Shown here one piece after another: positions 15,813 through 21,964 of a stretch of 21,999 nucleotides of DNA. The DNA lies in the IMG/VR virus record IMGVR_UViG_3300018481_000082, positions 1 to 21,999 of that record; one strand, written 5' to 3'. This stretch comes from a virus. The notes beneath the pieces were generated by a model that worked only from the letters and a program-made list of their open reading frames with translations, was not told the DNA's origin and searched no databases. Position numbers and translations under genes: made by a program. The stretch's first letter is position 1. Each line of letters begins with the position of its first letter.

Positions 15813-17744
15813 CTAAGCCCCCATCGCGTTCAGGCCAGTCTCAGTCGAGGCGGCGGAGCCCGGCCCAACGCCATTCAAGTTACGCTGCGCCCCCGGAGCG
15901 CCAATCGGAACCACATTTCCAGCGGCGGCTTGCCCCGCGAGCTGCTGATCGGGCATCACCTGCACCTTAAATTGGTGGATATTCTTAAGGCCGCTCAGCG
16001 AAGCCGCCCACGCAAAGATCTTCCCCCAATCATAGCCCGTCTGCACCTGCACGGGCATATTCCGCACCGAGGCCATTATCTCTTTCCAGAGGTTCGCTTG
16101 CGACATTCGATCGACGGGCAGCAACCCATCAACTGGCACGAAGTCGAACGAGCCCGCAATCAACTCCGGACTTACATTCAGAAAGCGCTCTCCTGCATCA
16201 AGCGCGAGGTCGCCTACGCGCCGCAACTTTCCTTCGACGTCGTAGAACTGTTGCGAGTTCTGTACCAGCTTCTGCGAATGCTGCGAAAACGACATCGCCG
16301 ACATATACTCAGCGACCGTCTTCATGCGGTTGACGCCGAAGGTGGTCGTGGTCCGCACTTCGGTAGCTGTTTTGCGGCCGCCACCCGAGTTAAGCGATCC
16401 CATAATCTGATCGTTAATGCCGAGGGTGCGTTCGCCGATGCCCATCATCGTCTGGAAGTCATTTATGTTCGATCGCGTGACGTCCGTAACCGGCACTTGG
16501 GTGAACATCTTTGAGATGTCAGTCCCATACGCTTCAGGGCGCAGCCGCCAAAGGAACCCTGGCCCCGAGTTTTGGACATCTTTGATGACCAGTTTCGAAG
16601 GATCGACAATGAACTGGTTATTGAGGCTAGCTCGGACGTTATAGAAGTGGGTATTGATAAGCCAGTCGACGGTGTTCTGCACCCCCGACATGATCTCGGG
16701 TACCCCTCGCGTATAGGCACCGTAGCCCTCCACTTCGCATTCCAGCACATTGAAGGGGAACTTACAATGCACATTGCCCAGCGGCGTAATCCCAATAATA
16801 ATGTCAAGGTCTTCCGTAATGGTAAAGACCCACTTTTGGGGATACTTCAACCCAGCACCTAGGCGCCATTCGGCAGGGATTAGGTCGACATGAACCTCAT
16901 AGAAGGTACCGCCTTCTGCATGCTTCGTCTTCTCCTCGTAATACTCAGAGGCGCTTAGGTCAAATTGGGGGCGCTTTAGCTGGGAGCTGCCCTCACTAGA
17001 GCCCTTATCAGTTAGATGGTCCTTCAGATATTGAATATTATCATTATAGTAGCCGTCGCGAGAGCGCCTTACGATCTCGTTCCAACTCATTCGCACCCGC
17101 CTAACGCAAAACTCACCCTTCTGGAAGTCCTTCAAACTTACGCGGGGGTCGTGCATGAAGTCCCACGGACTTACATTAAAGATGCGGTTGCCTTCGTAGC
17201 CGGGCAGCTCCTTCGTCGTCTGCCAAAGCGACACCGCCCCCGTCTCATCCGGCATCTCAATCAACTGGCCGTATTGAAGCGTCTCCTTGCACCAATACTC
17301 ACCCGTCACTCCATGGCCGTACTTACCTGCATCATAGAGCCAGATGTAGTAGGGGCCCAAGGCGGCGCCTACGTCAATCTGGTAGCCGATCAGCGCCTCC
17401 AGCGCTTGCACTTGCATTTCACCCTCGCCGTGCCTCCCAATGAACTGATGCACGGGGTTGCGGGCGAAAAAGACTGAGGTGAGGTAGGTATGCATACTCA
17501 TCATCATCGCATAAGTGTATGGGATCATGATCGTCGTATAACGGGGCGTGCCTGAGCTACGCGAATTCCGTCGCGCTCCATCCTCGGCGGTCTCATGCAC
17601 ATAGGCGAGCGTGCGCTCCTCGGCATCTATCCAGCGGTCGTGCTGATCCGAGTGGCCCTTCTCCGCGAGCTTAACTCGCGCCTGCAACCTCTCCTTTAGG
17701 AACGTATGGAGGGTCGAATCCTTAGGCGCCTTAAGGGTGGGCAT
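15813..17744 (-). CDS. Portal protein
   Basis: This encodes 643 residues from the ATG at 17744, which overlaps the terminase stop as TAATG and has AGGAG 9 nt upstream; the TTG three codons upstream is rejected. Size and order (directly after TerL) and motifs fit podovirus portals: a helical N-terminus with basic segments, SVFFARNPVHQF about residues 90-101, NVSPWDFMHDP in the wing, an NTVDWLINTHFYNVRASLNN region, and RKTATEVRTTTTFG followed by the helical crown/barrel part. The tail (about 600-643) is Gly/Ala-rich and probably disordered. It would form the dodecameric ring at one capsid vertex, through which TerL drives DNA. Confidence 0.92.
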   Translation of the reverse strand: MPTLKAPKDSTLHTFLKERLQARVKLAEKGHSDQHDRWIDAEERTLAYVHETAEDGARRNSRSSGTPRYTTIMIPYTYAMMMSMHTYLTSVFFARNPVHQFIGRHGEGEMQVQALEALIGYQIDVGAALGPYYIWLYDAGKYGHGVTGEYWCKETLQYGQLIEMPDETGAVSLWQTTKELPGYEGNRIFNVSPWDFMHDPRVSLKDFQKGEFCVRRVRMSWNEIVRRSRDGYYNDNIQYLKDHLTDKGSSEGSSQLKRPQFDLSASEYYEEKTKHAEGGTFYEVHVDLIPAEWRLGAGLKYPQKWVFTITEDLDIIIGITPLGNVHCKFPFNVLECEVEGYGAYTRGVPEIMSGVQNTVDWLINTHFYNVRASLNNQFIVDPSKLVIKDVQNSGPGFLWRLRPEAYGTDISKMFTQVPVTDVTRSNINDFQTMMGIGERTLGINDQIMGSLNSGGGRKTATEVRTTTTFGVNRMKTVAEYMSAMSFSQHSQKLVQNSQQFYDVEGKLRRVGDLALDAGERFLNVSPELIAGSFDFVPVDGLLPVDRMSQANLWKEIMASVRNMPVQVQTGYDWGKIFAWAASLSGLKNIHQFKVQVMPDQQLAGQAAAGNVVPIGAPGAQRNLNGVGPGSAASTETGLNAMGA

Positions 17745-19330
17745 TATGGGCAACTCCTGATGTCGGGCAAATCCTCGACCGCCCCCATGTATTGCACCTG
17801 GCCCTTCGCATCCAACTGGAGGAAGGGATTATACAACTCCTGCAACGCGAGTGCGCTCGCATCCAAATCATCGTCAAGGCCGCCGTAAGTAGGGCCGTAG
17901 GACTGAAATTGCATATTAAAGATCGAGTGGTCTCCGCCGATCCAGAGGCGGCCCTGCGAAGCCAGCGACCCTATCGTCGAGGTGATACGGGCGAACTTCT
18001 GCATTCCATCAGCAACGGGCACCACCTGATAATAGATGCCAGTCTTTTTCATCTCCTGCTCTAATATCCACTTAAGCGCCCGCTGATAGGCGACCGCATC
18101 TATTACGATTCGCATAACCCTCCACTGACGCGCAAGACGGAAAGCGGTGGCCACCGTCCAACTCGGATCGTGGCCACGACTACGATCAAAGTCGCAGAGG
18201 TGGTATTCGTCGCCCTTCCGCGCCCAGACATAATGCGCCTCATAATCTTTCCGCTGAAGGCCTCTCTCCTGGGCCTTTTCTGAAGGCGGAGGAACTGGGT
18301 CGATAGCGAGGATCGCGGGATAACCGCGCGGAGCGGGCACATCTGGGCTGCGGATGTTCAGCCAATTCGCCCTGAACTGCGCGGTCTCCCGCGAGATAAG
18401 GCGGCACTCCATCTCTCTAGTAAAGGTGGAGAGCTTGTTATCATTCGTGTAGTCGGACTTTTGCTTCCGCAACTCGCCAGTGGAGAAGCGCTCGGGCCAC
18501 GACGAAACCTGTTGGCTGGTCGGGAGATCCATCGTCTCCCGCGTCCAGCACGGAAACACGACCGACGTCCATTGCTGCGACTTCAGCGCCTTCTGCGAAA
18601 TGTCATCCTCATGCTGCGGCGTGATGAGCATAATCATCTTCGCATTAGGCTCATCCGATACCGGAGTTAGGGAGTTGCGGACCGCCCCCAGGATAAGCTC
18701 CTCCAGCTTCTCCCTCTGAGAGGCGTTGGCGGCCGTCTCGTCGTTCTGAGGATCGTCCACAATAATGAGGTCAGGCCGATAATCGTCAATATTAAGGCCC
18801 CGAAGGCTGCCAGTAACGCCAGAGGCAAGAACCCTAATAGTATGCCCAAACAACTTATGCTCAATCTCAATCTGGGTCTCTTCCCACTTTTGCCCCCGCG
18901 CAAGTCCAAAAGTTTCCCTCCATTTGTGGTTGCGGTCGACCCGGTTGCGAATCCAGTTAACCGACTCAATCGCCTTTCCCTCAGAGACGCCAATATAGAG
19001 GATGGTCCGCGAGATCCCGAATGCAATGCGCTTCGACGCAAAGATGCGGGCCCTCGACGTTTTGGAGCTGCCTCGAAACGCAATCACGTTGACGAGGCGC
19101 TTCGTTGGGTCCTCCATAGGCTCCCACATTGCGCGAGCGAACGCCGGCGACTGCTGCCTGAAGGTCTGCGGAAAGAACGTATGGGCATACAGCTCGGTAT
19201 CGACGGCGCAGAGCTTGACGAGTTCGTCGCGCGAGATGTGGATCGTACCTCCGCCGGCATTCACCTGTGAGGCGCCAGAAGGTGCGGTGCCCGCATCGCC
19301 GCCGCCTTGACGGCTCTTCATGCCCTCCAT
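17744..19330 (-). CDS. terL: Terminase large subunit (TerL)
   Basis: This encodes 528 residues. The N-terminal ATPase has a Walker A-like loop FRGSSKTS (85-92) and Walker B DLIIVDD (187-193), followed by a coupling-type LITPQHED (234-241). The C-terminal RNase H-like nuclease has acidic residues at D343 (ILAIDP), D410 (IVIDA) and the D485-D489 cluster (GGLDDDLD). It cuts concatemeric DNA and pumps it into the procapsid through the portal. The Walker A is a variant lacking the usual G-x-x-x-x-G-K spacing, with the Lys at 90 retained. The ATG at 19330 has AAGGTG 6 nt upstream. The gene overlaps its upstream neighbour by 13 bp and the portal start by 1 base. Confidence 0.95.
   Translation of the reverse strand: MEGMKSRQGGGDAGTAPSGASQVNAGGGTIHISRDELVKLCAVDTELYAHTFFPQTFRQQSPAFARAMWEPMEDPTKRLVNVIAFRGSSKTSRARIFASKRIAFGISRTILYIGVSEGKAIESVNWIRNRVDRNHKWRETFGLARGQKWEETQIEIEHKLFGHTIRVLASGVTGSLRGLNIDDYRPDLIIVDDPQNDETAANASQREKLEELILGAVRNSLTPVSDEPNAKMIMLITPQHEDDISQKALKSQQWTSVVFPCWTRETMDLPTSQQVSSWPERFSTGELRKQKSDYTNDNKLSTFTREMECRLISRETAQFRANWLNIRSPDVPAPRGYPAILAIDPVPPPSEKAQERGLQRKDYEAHYVWARKGDEYHLCDFDRSRGHDPSWTVATAFRLARQWRVMRIVIDAVAYQRALKWILEQEMKKTGIYYQVVPVADGMQKFARITSTIGSLASQGRLWIGGDHSIFNMQFQSYGPTYGGLDDDLDASALALQELYNPFLQLDAKGQVQYMGAVEDLPDIRSCP
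17754..17758 (-). promoter_or_regulatory. Ribosome binding site supporting the portal ATG
   Basis: AGGAG on the minus strand, 9 nt before the ATG at 17744. It lies inside the 3' end of the terminase gene and makes the upstream TTG at 17753 implausible as a start. Confidence 0.6.
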
Positions 19331-19845
19331 AGAAGCACCTTCATCCCCGCCGAAGGCTCAAGCACCTCTTCAATCGAGCGACACAAATCTATGTCCTCAG
19401 GAAACCCTATAGAAGGGTCGTAGGAGCGCACGACTTCGACGCAAATCACATCCTCAATGCCGCCTAGCTCCCGCACTACGGGCTCGTAGAGGCGCCTCAA
19501 CTGCCACCAGGCGGCGTGCGTATGCTGGCTCTTTATCTCGAACACATAGGCGAGTTCACCTCTTAGAAGCATCCCATCGGGGATGACGCGCCTGACGTTG
19601 CCCCCCGCGAGGAGCGTAAGGACGGGCGCTTCGATGTAGTCTGGTATTTGCTGCCTCAGATAGAGTTGCGCCTTTGCTTCGTAGCGGAGGCCCGCCCGCT
19701 GCGCTAGGGTGAGGCCGCCGCCCGATGCGGCACCGGAGGGCTTCCACGAGACGCGCTCAATCGGCCCACGGAGCGCCTGAAAGTGCGCCGGCGGCGGAAT
19801 GCTGGCGCGTGCCCTAGGGCTCGGATTTAGGGATGGAATTGGCAT
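19318..19845 (-). CDS. PD-(D/E)XK nuclease-like protein inside the terminase operon
   Basis: This encodes 175 residues. A PD-(D/E)XK-type core is visible: helix LRYEAKAQLYL with E56, then VIPDG with D90, then VFEIKSQ with E103 and K105 (E-x-K), then a following helix HAAWWQLRRLYEPVV with Q115. This is the order E, PD, ExK, Q expected for the superfamily. The N-terminus (about 1-45) is Pro-rich and probably disordered. It overlaps TerS by 32 bp and TerL by 13 bp, so it is translated with both packaging subunits. It could trim, nick or resolve DNA ends or branches during packaging, or defend the phage. The exact role is unknown. Confidence 0.72.
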   Translation of the reverse strand: MPIPSLNPSPRARASIPPPAHFQALRGPIERVSWKPSGAASGGGLTLAQRAGLRYEAKAQLYLRQQIPDYIEAPVLTLLAGGNVRRVIPDGMLLRGELAYVFEIKSQHTHAAWWQLRRLYEPVVRELGGIEDVICVEVVRSYDPSIGFPEDIDLCRSIEEVLEPSAGMKVLLWRA

Positions 19846-20464
19846 CTTCTGGGACTTCCTCCGAGGGTAGGTCGATTAGGACGCCTTCATCGAGCAGCGA
19901 TTCGATGTCGGGCGGCACCTCTGCCGCGGGCAGGGCGCTCGCAATCTTCCGCTGCTCTACAGCACGCAGGGTCGAACGCGCCTCTTCCAGCAGGGTAATC
20001 GTTACGCTGCCGCCCGGCGCACTTACCTGATTCGTGTTATTCACCACGACCGAAGGGCCTACCTGGGGGCCGAATCCGAGGCGGTCGAGGCCGGTCTCGA
20101 TGATGTCGCGGGCAATCGCAAGAGGGATCTGGTCGCCCTTCTTCTTCAGTTGCGCGTCCGCTGCATCGAGGGCCCGGATGGTCACTCCGGTCAGCTTCTC
20201 GCGCAGAATATCTTCGTTACGCTGGCGCCAAGCTTGCTTGCGCTGGGCCTCGTATTCGCGGTAGAGGTCGGTATTCGCGATAGCGCTTATGGTGTTTTCG
20301 CCCTTCCCGAGGTGGGCGGCGATCTCGCGATTCGTGCAGCCCGGATTGGCGAGGCGGTAATCGGCGATAGAAGCGTACCACCAGCGCCACCTCCCGCGGT
20401 AGTGGCCAGTGCCGCCCTTCGTCTGCTGGAGGGCTGGCTCAGCTGGAATTGCGTTCGGGTTCAT
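19814..20464 (-). CDS. terS: Terminase small subunit (TerS)
   Basis: This encodes 216 residues. A helix-turn-helix lies about residues 42-64 (GCTNREIAAHLGKGENTIS), followed by long helical segments (LYREYEAQRKQAWRQRNEDI) suited to oligomer formation, and an acidic C-terminal tail that could contact TerL. It is the first gene of the leftward operon, directly before the nuclease-like gene and TerL. The ATG at 20464 has GGGGAG 8 nt upstream. It would recognise the packaging site, which in many phages lies in or near terS, so the 20465-21130 region is a candidate. The assignment rests on HTH, size and gene order. Confidence 0.85.
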   Translation of the reverse strand: MNPNAIPAEPALQQTKGGTGHYRGRWRWWYASIADYRLANPGCTNREIAAHLGKGENTISAIANTDLYREYEAQRKQAWRQRNEDILREKLTGVTIRALDAADAQLKKKGDQIPLAIARDIIETGLDRLGFGPQVGPSVVVNNTNQVSAPGGSVTITLLEEARSTLRAVEQRKIASALPAAEVPPDIESLLDEGVLIDLPSEEVPEDANSIPKSEP

Positions 20465-20773
20465 TTAGCGTCTCCCCGAACTCATACGTGCGCTCAGCGG
20501 GGGGCGCTTTAGAAAGCCGTAACTCGCCTCAGCCTCGCCAGGAGGGCGCGGCTTGCGGGGCTTTTTCGCGGGGCGGGGCTTCGGTGGCGACCCTCTCGGC
20601 GGGCGTGTTTTCATGTCCCGAGGTTAGCGCGGCGGGGGGCGGCGCGCAATGGTAATCGGCACACTGCCCCTTTGGAGGGGATTGATTGTCCGGGCCGCTG
20701 GCGCGTTTTGCGGCCGGGTGATAGCGGGGCAGCGCGGGCCCTGGGCCGCTGCACGGGCGGGCTGTTTCTGTGC

Positions 20774-20820
20774 GGGGGCGGGGCCATCGCGCTGGTGGTC
20801 GGGGGGCGGTGTTTGGGGGG
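20774..20820 (+). other. Potential G-quadruplex cluster 1
   Basis: Four G tracts lie at 20774-20778, 20780-20783, 20801-20806 and 20815-20820, with loops of 1, 17 and 8 nt. The long middle loop makes folding uncertain. Confidence 0.35.
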
Positions 20821-20890
20821 TGCTGCGGTGCTGCTGTGCGAAAGGGGCGTTGTGTTTGCGACTTCGCGCGGGCCCCGAATGGCAGACCCC

Positions 20891-20920
20891 GGGGGTGGGC
20901 AACACAACTCAGGGTGGGGG
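20891..20920 (+). other. Potential G-quadruplex cluster 2 (symmetric)
   Basis: GGGGG-T-GGG, a 12-nt spacer, then GGG-T-GGGGG: a mirror-symmetric set of four G tracts at 20891-20895, 20897-20899, 20912-20914 and 20916-20920. Confidence 0.4.
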
Positions 20921-20931
20921 TATGGCCTCCC

Positions 20932-20944
20932 CCTCTACTAGAGG
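20932..20944. promoter_or_regulatory. Perfect 13-nt palindrome, candidate operator
   Basis: CCTCTA-C-TAGAGG is a perfect inverted repeat with a one-base centre, about 190 bp before the rightward gene. A nearby TAGTGCTAGC follows it. Operator function is inferred only from position and symmetry. Confidence 0.35.
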
Positions 20945-20966
20945 TAGTGCTAGCCATGCACCCCGA

Positions 20967-20998
20967 GCATAGCATGCGTCCAGCGCATAGCTGCGTCC
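20967..20998. repeat. Direct repeat in the divergent control region
   Basis: GCATAGCATGCGTCC (20967-20981) and GCATAGCTGCGTCC (20985-20998) are the same word with one base inserted in the first copy, spaced 18 bp apart. A looser third part (GCGCATGCCTGGCATG, 20999-21014 region) follows. This spacing, close to two helical turns, is compatible with a protein-binding array. Confidence 0.5.
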
Positions 20999-21101
20999 CG
21001 CGCATGCCTGGCATGTGAAGATGCATGGCGATTGTTCTAGACTCCATAAGCGCGCTGGCTTATGGTGTTCATGCGGCCGGGCAATGGTGCCGAGGCCGCA
21101 A

Positions 21102-21114
21102 GGGGCAGAGCCCC
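21102..21114 (+). promoter_or_regulatory. Small hairpin directly before the rightward gene's ribosome site
   Basis: GGGGC-AGA-GCCCC is a 5-bp stem with a 3-nt loop, ending at the AAGGGAG Shine-Dalgarno (21115-21121). It could affect ribosome access or mRNA stability. Confidence 0.35.
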
Positions 21115-21130
21115 AAGGGAGCCTTAAGCT

Positions 21131-21688
21131 ATGAATACCCAAGTCGAAAAGGTAGAGCGCGTCGCCAAGCACGAACTGCTCGACAGCGCAGGCACGGTCA
21201 CCGAGCGTTTCGAAGACGCAGTTGCGATCCGCTACACGGATATCGCATCGGGTGATGTGATCGACTTCGAGCCGAAAGGCGAAGCGCAGCGCATGCTGGC
21301 TCTGTTCGGGGCGCGCACGCTGGCGACCAACGAGGCGAGCGCATCGCGCCAGAAGGACGGCACCTCTGCCGACCAGATGGACGCAATCCGCGAGCGGTTC
21401 GCGGGCATGAGCGGCGATGAGCCCAAGTGGGTCGATCGCACCCGCGAGGGCGGCCCACGCATCGACCAGCCCACGCTGGCCGAGTCGGTCGTCGACCAAA
21501 TGGTCATCGACGGGAAGTGGACCGAAGATGAGCGCGCGACCAAAGTCGCGAAGATGCTGGAGACGATGAAGGCGGATGCGAAGAAGGTCACCGTCCTTCG
21601 CTCGCTGCCTGGTGTCGAGGCGCACTACAAGCGGCGCAAGGGCGGCAAAGCGGCCAGCGCCGCCGACATCGCCGCGCTCGTGGCGTAA
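21131..21688 (+). CDS. Rightward protein of unknown function (185 aa)
   Basis: The ATG at 21131 is preceded by AAGGGAG with about 9 nt spacing. The protein is soluble and highly charged. Residues 43-74 (VIDFEPKGEAQRMLALFG and on) are clearly related to residues 19-50 of the small gene downstream. The C-terminal part (about 126-175) is helical and basic (KVAKMLETMKADAKKVT, EAHYKRRKGGK), which could bind nucleic acid. I recognise no enzyme motif. It is divergent from the virion operon, so it may belong to an early or regulatory/replication module. Its codon choice looks more G/C-rich than that of the leftward genes. Confidence 0.8.
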   Translation: MNTQVEKVERVAKHELLDSAGTVTERFEDAVAIRYTDIASGDVIDFEPKGEAQRMLALFGARTLATNEASASRQKDGTSADQMDAIRERFAGMSGDEPKWVDRTREGGPRIDQPTLAESVVDQMVIDGKWTEDERATKVAKMLETMKADAKKVTVLRSLPGVEAHYKRRKGGKAASAADIAALVA

Positions 21689-21745: not shown

Positions 21746-21964
21746 ATGGCAATCAAGTTCTCAATTAAGCTGTTCCGCTCCCCCGATCGAATCCCCAAAG
21801 TGCTCGACTTTGAGGGAACCAAACTCGAAGGCCAGCGCGAACTAGCGATATTCGGCCTCCGCACCCTCACCCAGAACACGGCGTCCATGCTGCGCCAGCG
21901 CGGCCTCACCGAGGCCGAGATCGAAACCGAGCTTCGCGCTTTCGTCGCCAAGCGTCTCTCCTAA
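21746..21964 (+). CDS. Small rightward protein related to its upstream neighbour (72 aa)
   Basis: The ATG at 21746 has AAAGGA 8 nt upstream. Residues 19-50 (VLDFEGTKLEGQRELAIFGL then RTLTQNTASMLRQ) align with residues 43-74 of the 185-residue protein, sharing DFE, QR, FG, RTL, AS and RQ. The C-terminus is a short charged helix (TEAEIETELRAFVAKRL). This looks like a partial duplicate or a single-domain version of the larger protein. No catalytic residues are seen. It is enclosed by hairpins on both sides, so it can be expressed separately. Function is unknown. Confidence 0.75.
   Translation: MAIKFSIKLFRSPDRIPKVLDFEGTKLEGQRELAIFGLRTLTQNTASMLRQRGLTEAEIETELRAFVAKRLS

Follow-up and report, generated by a model that had tools for sequence, protein, structure and literature searches.

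The gene between the small and large terminase subunit genes of a virus from IMG/VR encodes a small protein that, by predicted fold and conserved motif, belongs to the PD-(D/E)XK nuclease superfamily. The initial annotation had proposed this membership from the letters of the window alone (the window is the whole stretch of 21,999 nucleotides analyzed here, positions 1 to 21,999 of record IMGVR_UViG_3300018481_000082). The assignment is now supported by conservation of the motif among homologs, by the predicted core and by matches to solved folds. The evidence favors a role in packaging or DNA processing, and it does not separate end processing from branch removal. Our tentative preference, which falls somewhat short of even confidence, is that the protein is a packaging-coupled, structure-specific (debranching) endonuclease.

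The gene and its neighbors

The open reading frame is as first described, with E56, P89-D90, E103-I104-K105 and Q115 all at the positions originally given (Table 1). The gene also overlaps both terminase genes as claimed, by 32 bp on the terS side and by 4-13 bp on the terL side. The overlap with terL is 13 bp for a terL start at the ATG at 19330, or 4 bp (ATGA) for the alternative in-frame start at the ATG at 19321. A Shine-Dalgarno-like GGAGGA lies at 19857-19862, 11 nt upstream of the nuclease ATG.

Table 1. Features of the terminase region in the window, with codons of the putative catalytic motif
Feature	Position	Strand	Basis or remark
PD-(D/E)XK nuclease gene	19318..19845	-	ATG start, 175 aa ORF
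terS, small terminase subunit gene	19814..20464	-	weak HTH matches, place, conserved family
terL, large terminase subunit gene	17744..19330	-	PHROG 38 at 3.4e-59; Pfam Terminase_6C at 7e-6
Portal protein gene	15813..17753	-	Pfam SU10_portal at 3e-15
terS end / nuclease start overlap, 32 bp	19814..19845	-	from sequence
Nuclease end / terL start overlap	19318..19330	-	from sequence
E56 codon, helix A glutamate (GxxxE with G52)	19678..19680	-	invariant in 44; within helix 47-66 of model
P89-D90 codons, PD motif	19576..19581	-	D90 invariant in 44; starts strand 91-95
E103-I104-K105 codons, ExK motif	19531..19539	-	E103, K105 invariant in 44; mid strand 98-107
Q115 codon, helix B	19501..19503	-	invariant in 44; helix 110-125

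The upstream gene is named terS from weak HTH matches, from its position and from a sequence family that is conserved across loci. Among the fetched loci, 96 frames of this family lie upstream of the nuclease and terL.

Two further regions of the window were noted. A GC-rich, non-coding stretch (20465-21130) separates the minus-strand packaging operon from small plus-strand genes (21131-21688 and 21746-21964) and is likely a divergent control region. A minus-strand ORF (3-1205) that runs to the window edge resembles, by eye, an N-acetylmuramoyl-L-alanine amidase endolysin with a C-terminal extension.

Catalytic motif and predicted fold

Conservation of D90, E103 and K105 among homologs had been suggested as a check on the assignment. 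All three residues are kept in 44 of 44 aligned sequences, as are E56 and Q115. The complete list of invariant positions (window numbering) is G52, E56, D90, E103, K105, Q115 and Y120, and P89, H108, A112, P122, E137 and D143 are nearly invariant. In a set of 30 sequences that includes Caulobacter phage Kuura, D90 is found in 29 (replaced by E once, in Kuura) and Q115 also in 29.

The alignment was grown by iteration, from 13 to 27 and then to 44 sequences, and the family comprises more than 60 distinct phage loci. A tblastn search with the window protein recovered homologs in Microcystis phage Mel-JY34 and Vibrio phage VS-ABTNL-3. Among scanned viral contigs there is a relative with 63% identity. 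No cellular homologs were found in two pattern-limited scans of genome contigs.

The pattern E-x(28-38)-PD-x(8-14)-[DE]xK occurs in 0.4% of shuffles of the window protein. Of the other long frames in the fetched loci, 26 of 1349 (1.9%) contain it, compared to 71 of 84 family frames (85%). Conservation across homologs is stronger support than these chance figures. The family is also under purifying selection: dN/dS is about 0.11-0.22 in measurable pairs, values that are rough because some pairs are near saturation.

So far the family appears to be absent from public profile libraries. The window protein alone has no match in Pfam or PHROG. When 27 members were scanned, no Pfam, PHROG, NCBIfam or PADLOC model for the nuclease emerged, and the hits were weak and scattered. 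Several of these hits are PD-(D/E)XK families (NERD, 0.0037; NucS, 0.09), and one member weakly matches phrog_6591, a Holliday junction resolvase PHROG (3.8e-4). The best weak sequence match of the nuclease is Cas4 4r5q (E 0.013).

An alpha-beta-beta-beta-alpha-beta core had been set beforehand as a test of the fold, and it is present in both AlphaFold2 models that we built. The model of the window protein (27 sequences; pLDDT 91.3, pTM 0.84) runs through helix 47-66, strands 75-80, 83-87, 91-95 and 98-107, helix 110-125 and strand 132-141. A second family member (44 sequences; pLDDT 95.2) has the same order of elements. In the model E56 lies on helix A, D90 enters the second core strand, E103 and K105 lie on the third, and Q115 lies on helix B. 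Judged from DSSP, strands 91-95 and 98-107 with their turn at 96-97 would put D90 opposite E103.

Foldseek searches of the PDB with the two models gave leading matches that are mostly PD-(D/E)XK nucleases, with best E-values of 4e-3 and 1e-2. The best matches are Can2, VC1899, McrC, Bax1, R2 endonuclease, Cas4 (SSO0001) and NucS/EndoMS. No match is close; TM-scores to the solved structures all stay under 0.41, and hence the fold names no specific activity. Among viral models, the fold comparison gave strong matches to three small phage proteins (E 1e-11 to 3e-7).

Comparison with known nucleases

The proteins of Mel-JY34 (XAI96499.1) and VS-ABTNL-3 (ATB52643.1) are true homologs, and GenBank labels them 'putative endonuclease I'. 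Pairwise E-values with the window protein are 8e-7 for Mel-JY34 and 7e-2 for VS-ABTNL-3, and both are clear in the profile. As in the window, the two genes lie between a terS-like gene and terL, and all catalytic residues are present. The proteins are merely 27-28% identical to the window protein.

The GenBank names imply membership in the T7 endonuclease I family, which we rejected: hhalign to T7 gp3 returned a probability of 0.1. PF05367, the T7 endonuclease I family, matches none of the 27 members. T7 endonuclease I (gp3) does resemble the nuclease in its superfamily motif order (E, D, ExK), in being phage-encoded and in being small (149 aa). T7 gene 3 sits among replication genes and not between terminase genes.

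Cas4/RecB-like nucleases and NucS/EndoMS are among the best fold matches (SSO0001 and NucS, TM below 0.41), and the Q and Y of helix B resemble the RecB-type QxxxY motif. Cas4 is defined by a four-cysteine Fe-S cluster module (PMC5704561). The nuclease has only C135 and C155 and does not have this module; Cas4 membership was therefore rejected. VRR_NUC (PF08774) was rejected as well, with no match in the family members. Proteins of the HK97 gp74 type are similarly small and encoded beside terminase genes, but no member has an HNH match and the predicted fold differs, so an HNH terminase accessory was also rejected.

The terminase slot in related phages

A survey of related phages, also suggested at the outset, shows that the placement is conserved. 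A search from terL gave 53 non-redundant loci in which a terS is visible. Of these, 41 have the nuclease gene between the two terminase genes, with the order terS, nuclease, terL and a shared strand in every case; the other 12 lack it. When the nuclease was the sole query, terL was found downstream in every recovered locus. In nearly all cases the nuclease frame overlaps terS or adjoins it, and 1-3 kb of ordinary late genes may separate it from terL. Since the nuclease stays directly behind terS although its distance to terL varies, its fixed neighbor is terS.

Genes inserted between the nuclease and terL were seen in loci L008, L045, L083, L101, L102, L110 and others, and almost never between terS and the nuclease. 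By eye, some of them resemble lysis, tail-fiber or membrane proteins, and an ORF in locus L020 (2290-2808) is like HNH/AP2-type homing endonucleases. Searching 21 whole records that have no nuclease near terL located the gene farther off clearly in two; a third match is weak and contains stops.

In Caulobacter phage Kuura (OQ067476.1; L005 750-2045), an annotated 431-aa 'putative small terminase' consists of a TerS-like part and the nuclease domain, in which PD is changed to PE and H108 to G. Just past the TerS-like part, another frame contains VKNLTLTLSGEDLARI, which resembles a normal TerS C-terminus. Hence the fusion is probably a frameshift, either from sequencing or natural, and we set it aside as evidence of a link to TerS.

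We compared trees of the nuclease, terS, terL and the portal for 61 loci. Agreement with terL is poor for the nuclease (rank correlation rho 0.23, against 0.60 for terS). Both are short, and the nuclease has diverged to about the same degree as terS. Thus either the nuclease moves between phages more often, or its alignment, being short, carries more noise. Such poor agreement is unexpected of a subunit closely fitted to the terminase and counts against packaging-coupled debranching.

Presence in some related phages and absence from others, together with the discordance with terL, would fit a free-standing homing endonuclease for which the terminase genes are a landing site. However, the position is constant, right behind terS and with overlapping frames. 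The gene is under purifying selection and is found in most loci, very divergent ones included. Neither a homing-type DNA-binding domain in the protein nor, in nuclease-only searches, another genomic slot was seen. Homing is the least likely of the proposed roles, and we consider it highly improbable.

A patchy gene that is exchanged between phages could also be a passenger in the terminase operon, serving host takeover or counter-defense through host DNA breakdown or attack on plasmids and competing phages. Some phage PD-(D/E)XK proteins do disturb defense, for example, the Cas4-like proteins of Campylobacter phages (PMC5704561). Yet searches with the nuclease alone never placed the gene outside the terS-terL region, and the best PADLOC match of the family is no better than E 0.036. 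Overlapping frames among late packaging genes are also unsuited to early host takeover. Because its slot is constant, the nuclease is less likely to have such a role, and we regard it as improbable.

Phage PD-(D/E)XK nucleases as a kind are already known, but this family and the slot it takes between the terminase genes appear to be new. Our searches of the open-access literature brought up no account of a PD-(D/E)XK family with a fixed place between terS and terL.

Packaging-coupled debranching or end formation

Because the slot is kept in most related phages, the likely task of the nuclease is to trim or cut viral DNA for packaging. In the debranching mechanism a metal-dependent PD-(D/E)XK nuclease would be produced along with the terminase subunits, its gene overlapping theirs. 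The enzyme, presumably active in catalysis, would act with the packaging complex, probably via TerS, and may bind the terminase. There it would excise branches (Holliday or Y junctions, flaps) from replicating concatemeric DNA, its likely substrate. Removal of the branches would leave TerL able to translocate the concatemer.

The proposed role would parallel that of phage T4 endonuclease VII, a portal-binding enzyme that lets packaging resume when it has stalled at Y-DNA (PMC3485210; PMC9958956). What the two share is the proposed function of debranching in concert with the packaging machine (PMC9958956, PMC3485210). In contrast, endonuclease VII (gp49) belongs to an unrelated family and has another active site.

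Searches for other resolvases bear on this role in two ways. RuvC, RusA, endonuclease VII (PF02945) and VRR_NUC (PF08774) all stayed below the cut-off in 35 related records; for VRR_NUC, the same whole-record search gave signal in control genomes. With no other resolvase family above the cut-off, the nuclease is the best visible resolvase candidate in these records. The slot, the co-translation with the terminase genes and this absence of resolvases together make packaging-coupled debranching the best single guess.

However, the records of relatives that lack the nuclease have no recognized resolvase either (the endonuclease I search among these had no positive control). We had considered that another resolvase might stand in for the nuclease in such genomes, and we rejected this complementarity, since none was seen. 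About a quarter of the related terminase loci have neither the nuclease nor a recognized resolvase, and thus a resolvase is not obligatory. Because these relatives are also without the resolvase families listed above, the argument for debranching is weak.

The main rival to debranching is end formation. Here the nuclease would assist the terminase by nicking or cutting the genome end and so help TerL produce mature ends, for example, direct terminal repeats. The nuclease is tightly coupled to terS, the subunit of packaging-site recognition, and the related podovirus Kuura has an exact direct terminal repeat of 606 bp (found here; reported in PMC9959647). The HNH protein gp74 of HK97 helps its terminase cut cos. 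Similarly placed HNH nucleases act with the terminase (Kala et al. 2014, as cited in PMC12817073). On the other hand, the fold and motif of the nuclease are PD-(D/E)XK and not HNH, and 12 of the 53 related loci have no such gene although their terminases are otherwise similar. Nor was an end repeat found in the records of Mel-JY34 and VS-ABTNL-3, which may be permuted or incomplete. We consider end formation rather unlikely.

Implications

The label 'endonuclease I' that GenBank gives to the homologs lacks sequence support, and the family alignment can serve to build a profile. Two isolates that carry the nuclease, Mel-JY34 and VS-ABTNL-3, are already in GenBank. To our knowledge, few phages have a known enzyme for debranching concatemers or for making terminal repeats. 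A compact family of nucleases that holds a fixed place between terS and terL in the majority of a diverse clade offers a direct handle on debranching and end formation. It is possible, if doubtful, that the terminase complex of a large uncultured podovirus-like clade has a third, nuclease component. This component would be a PD-(D/E)XK enzyme recruited by TerS, and it would make or finish genome ends or clear branches during packaging, tasks for which HNH proteins or portal-bound endonuclease VII have so far been held responsible.
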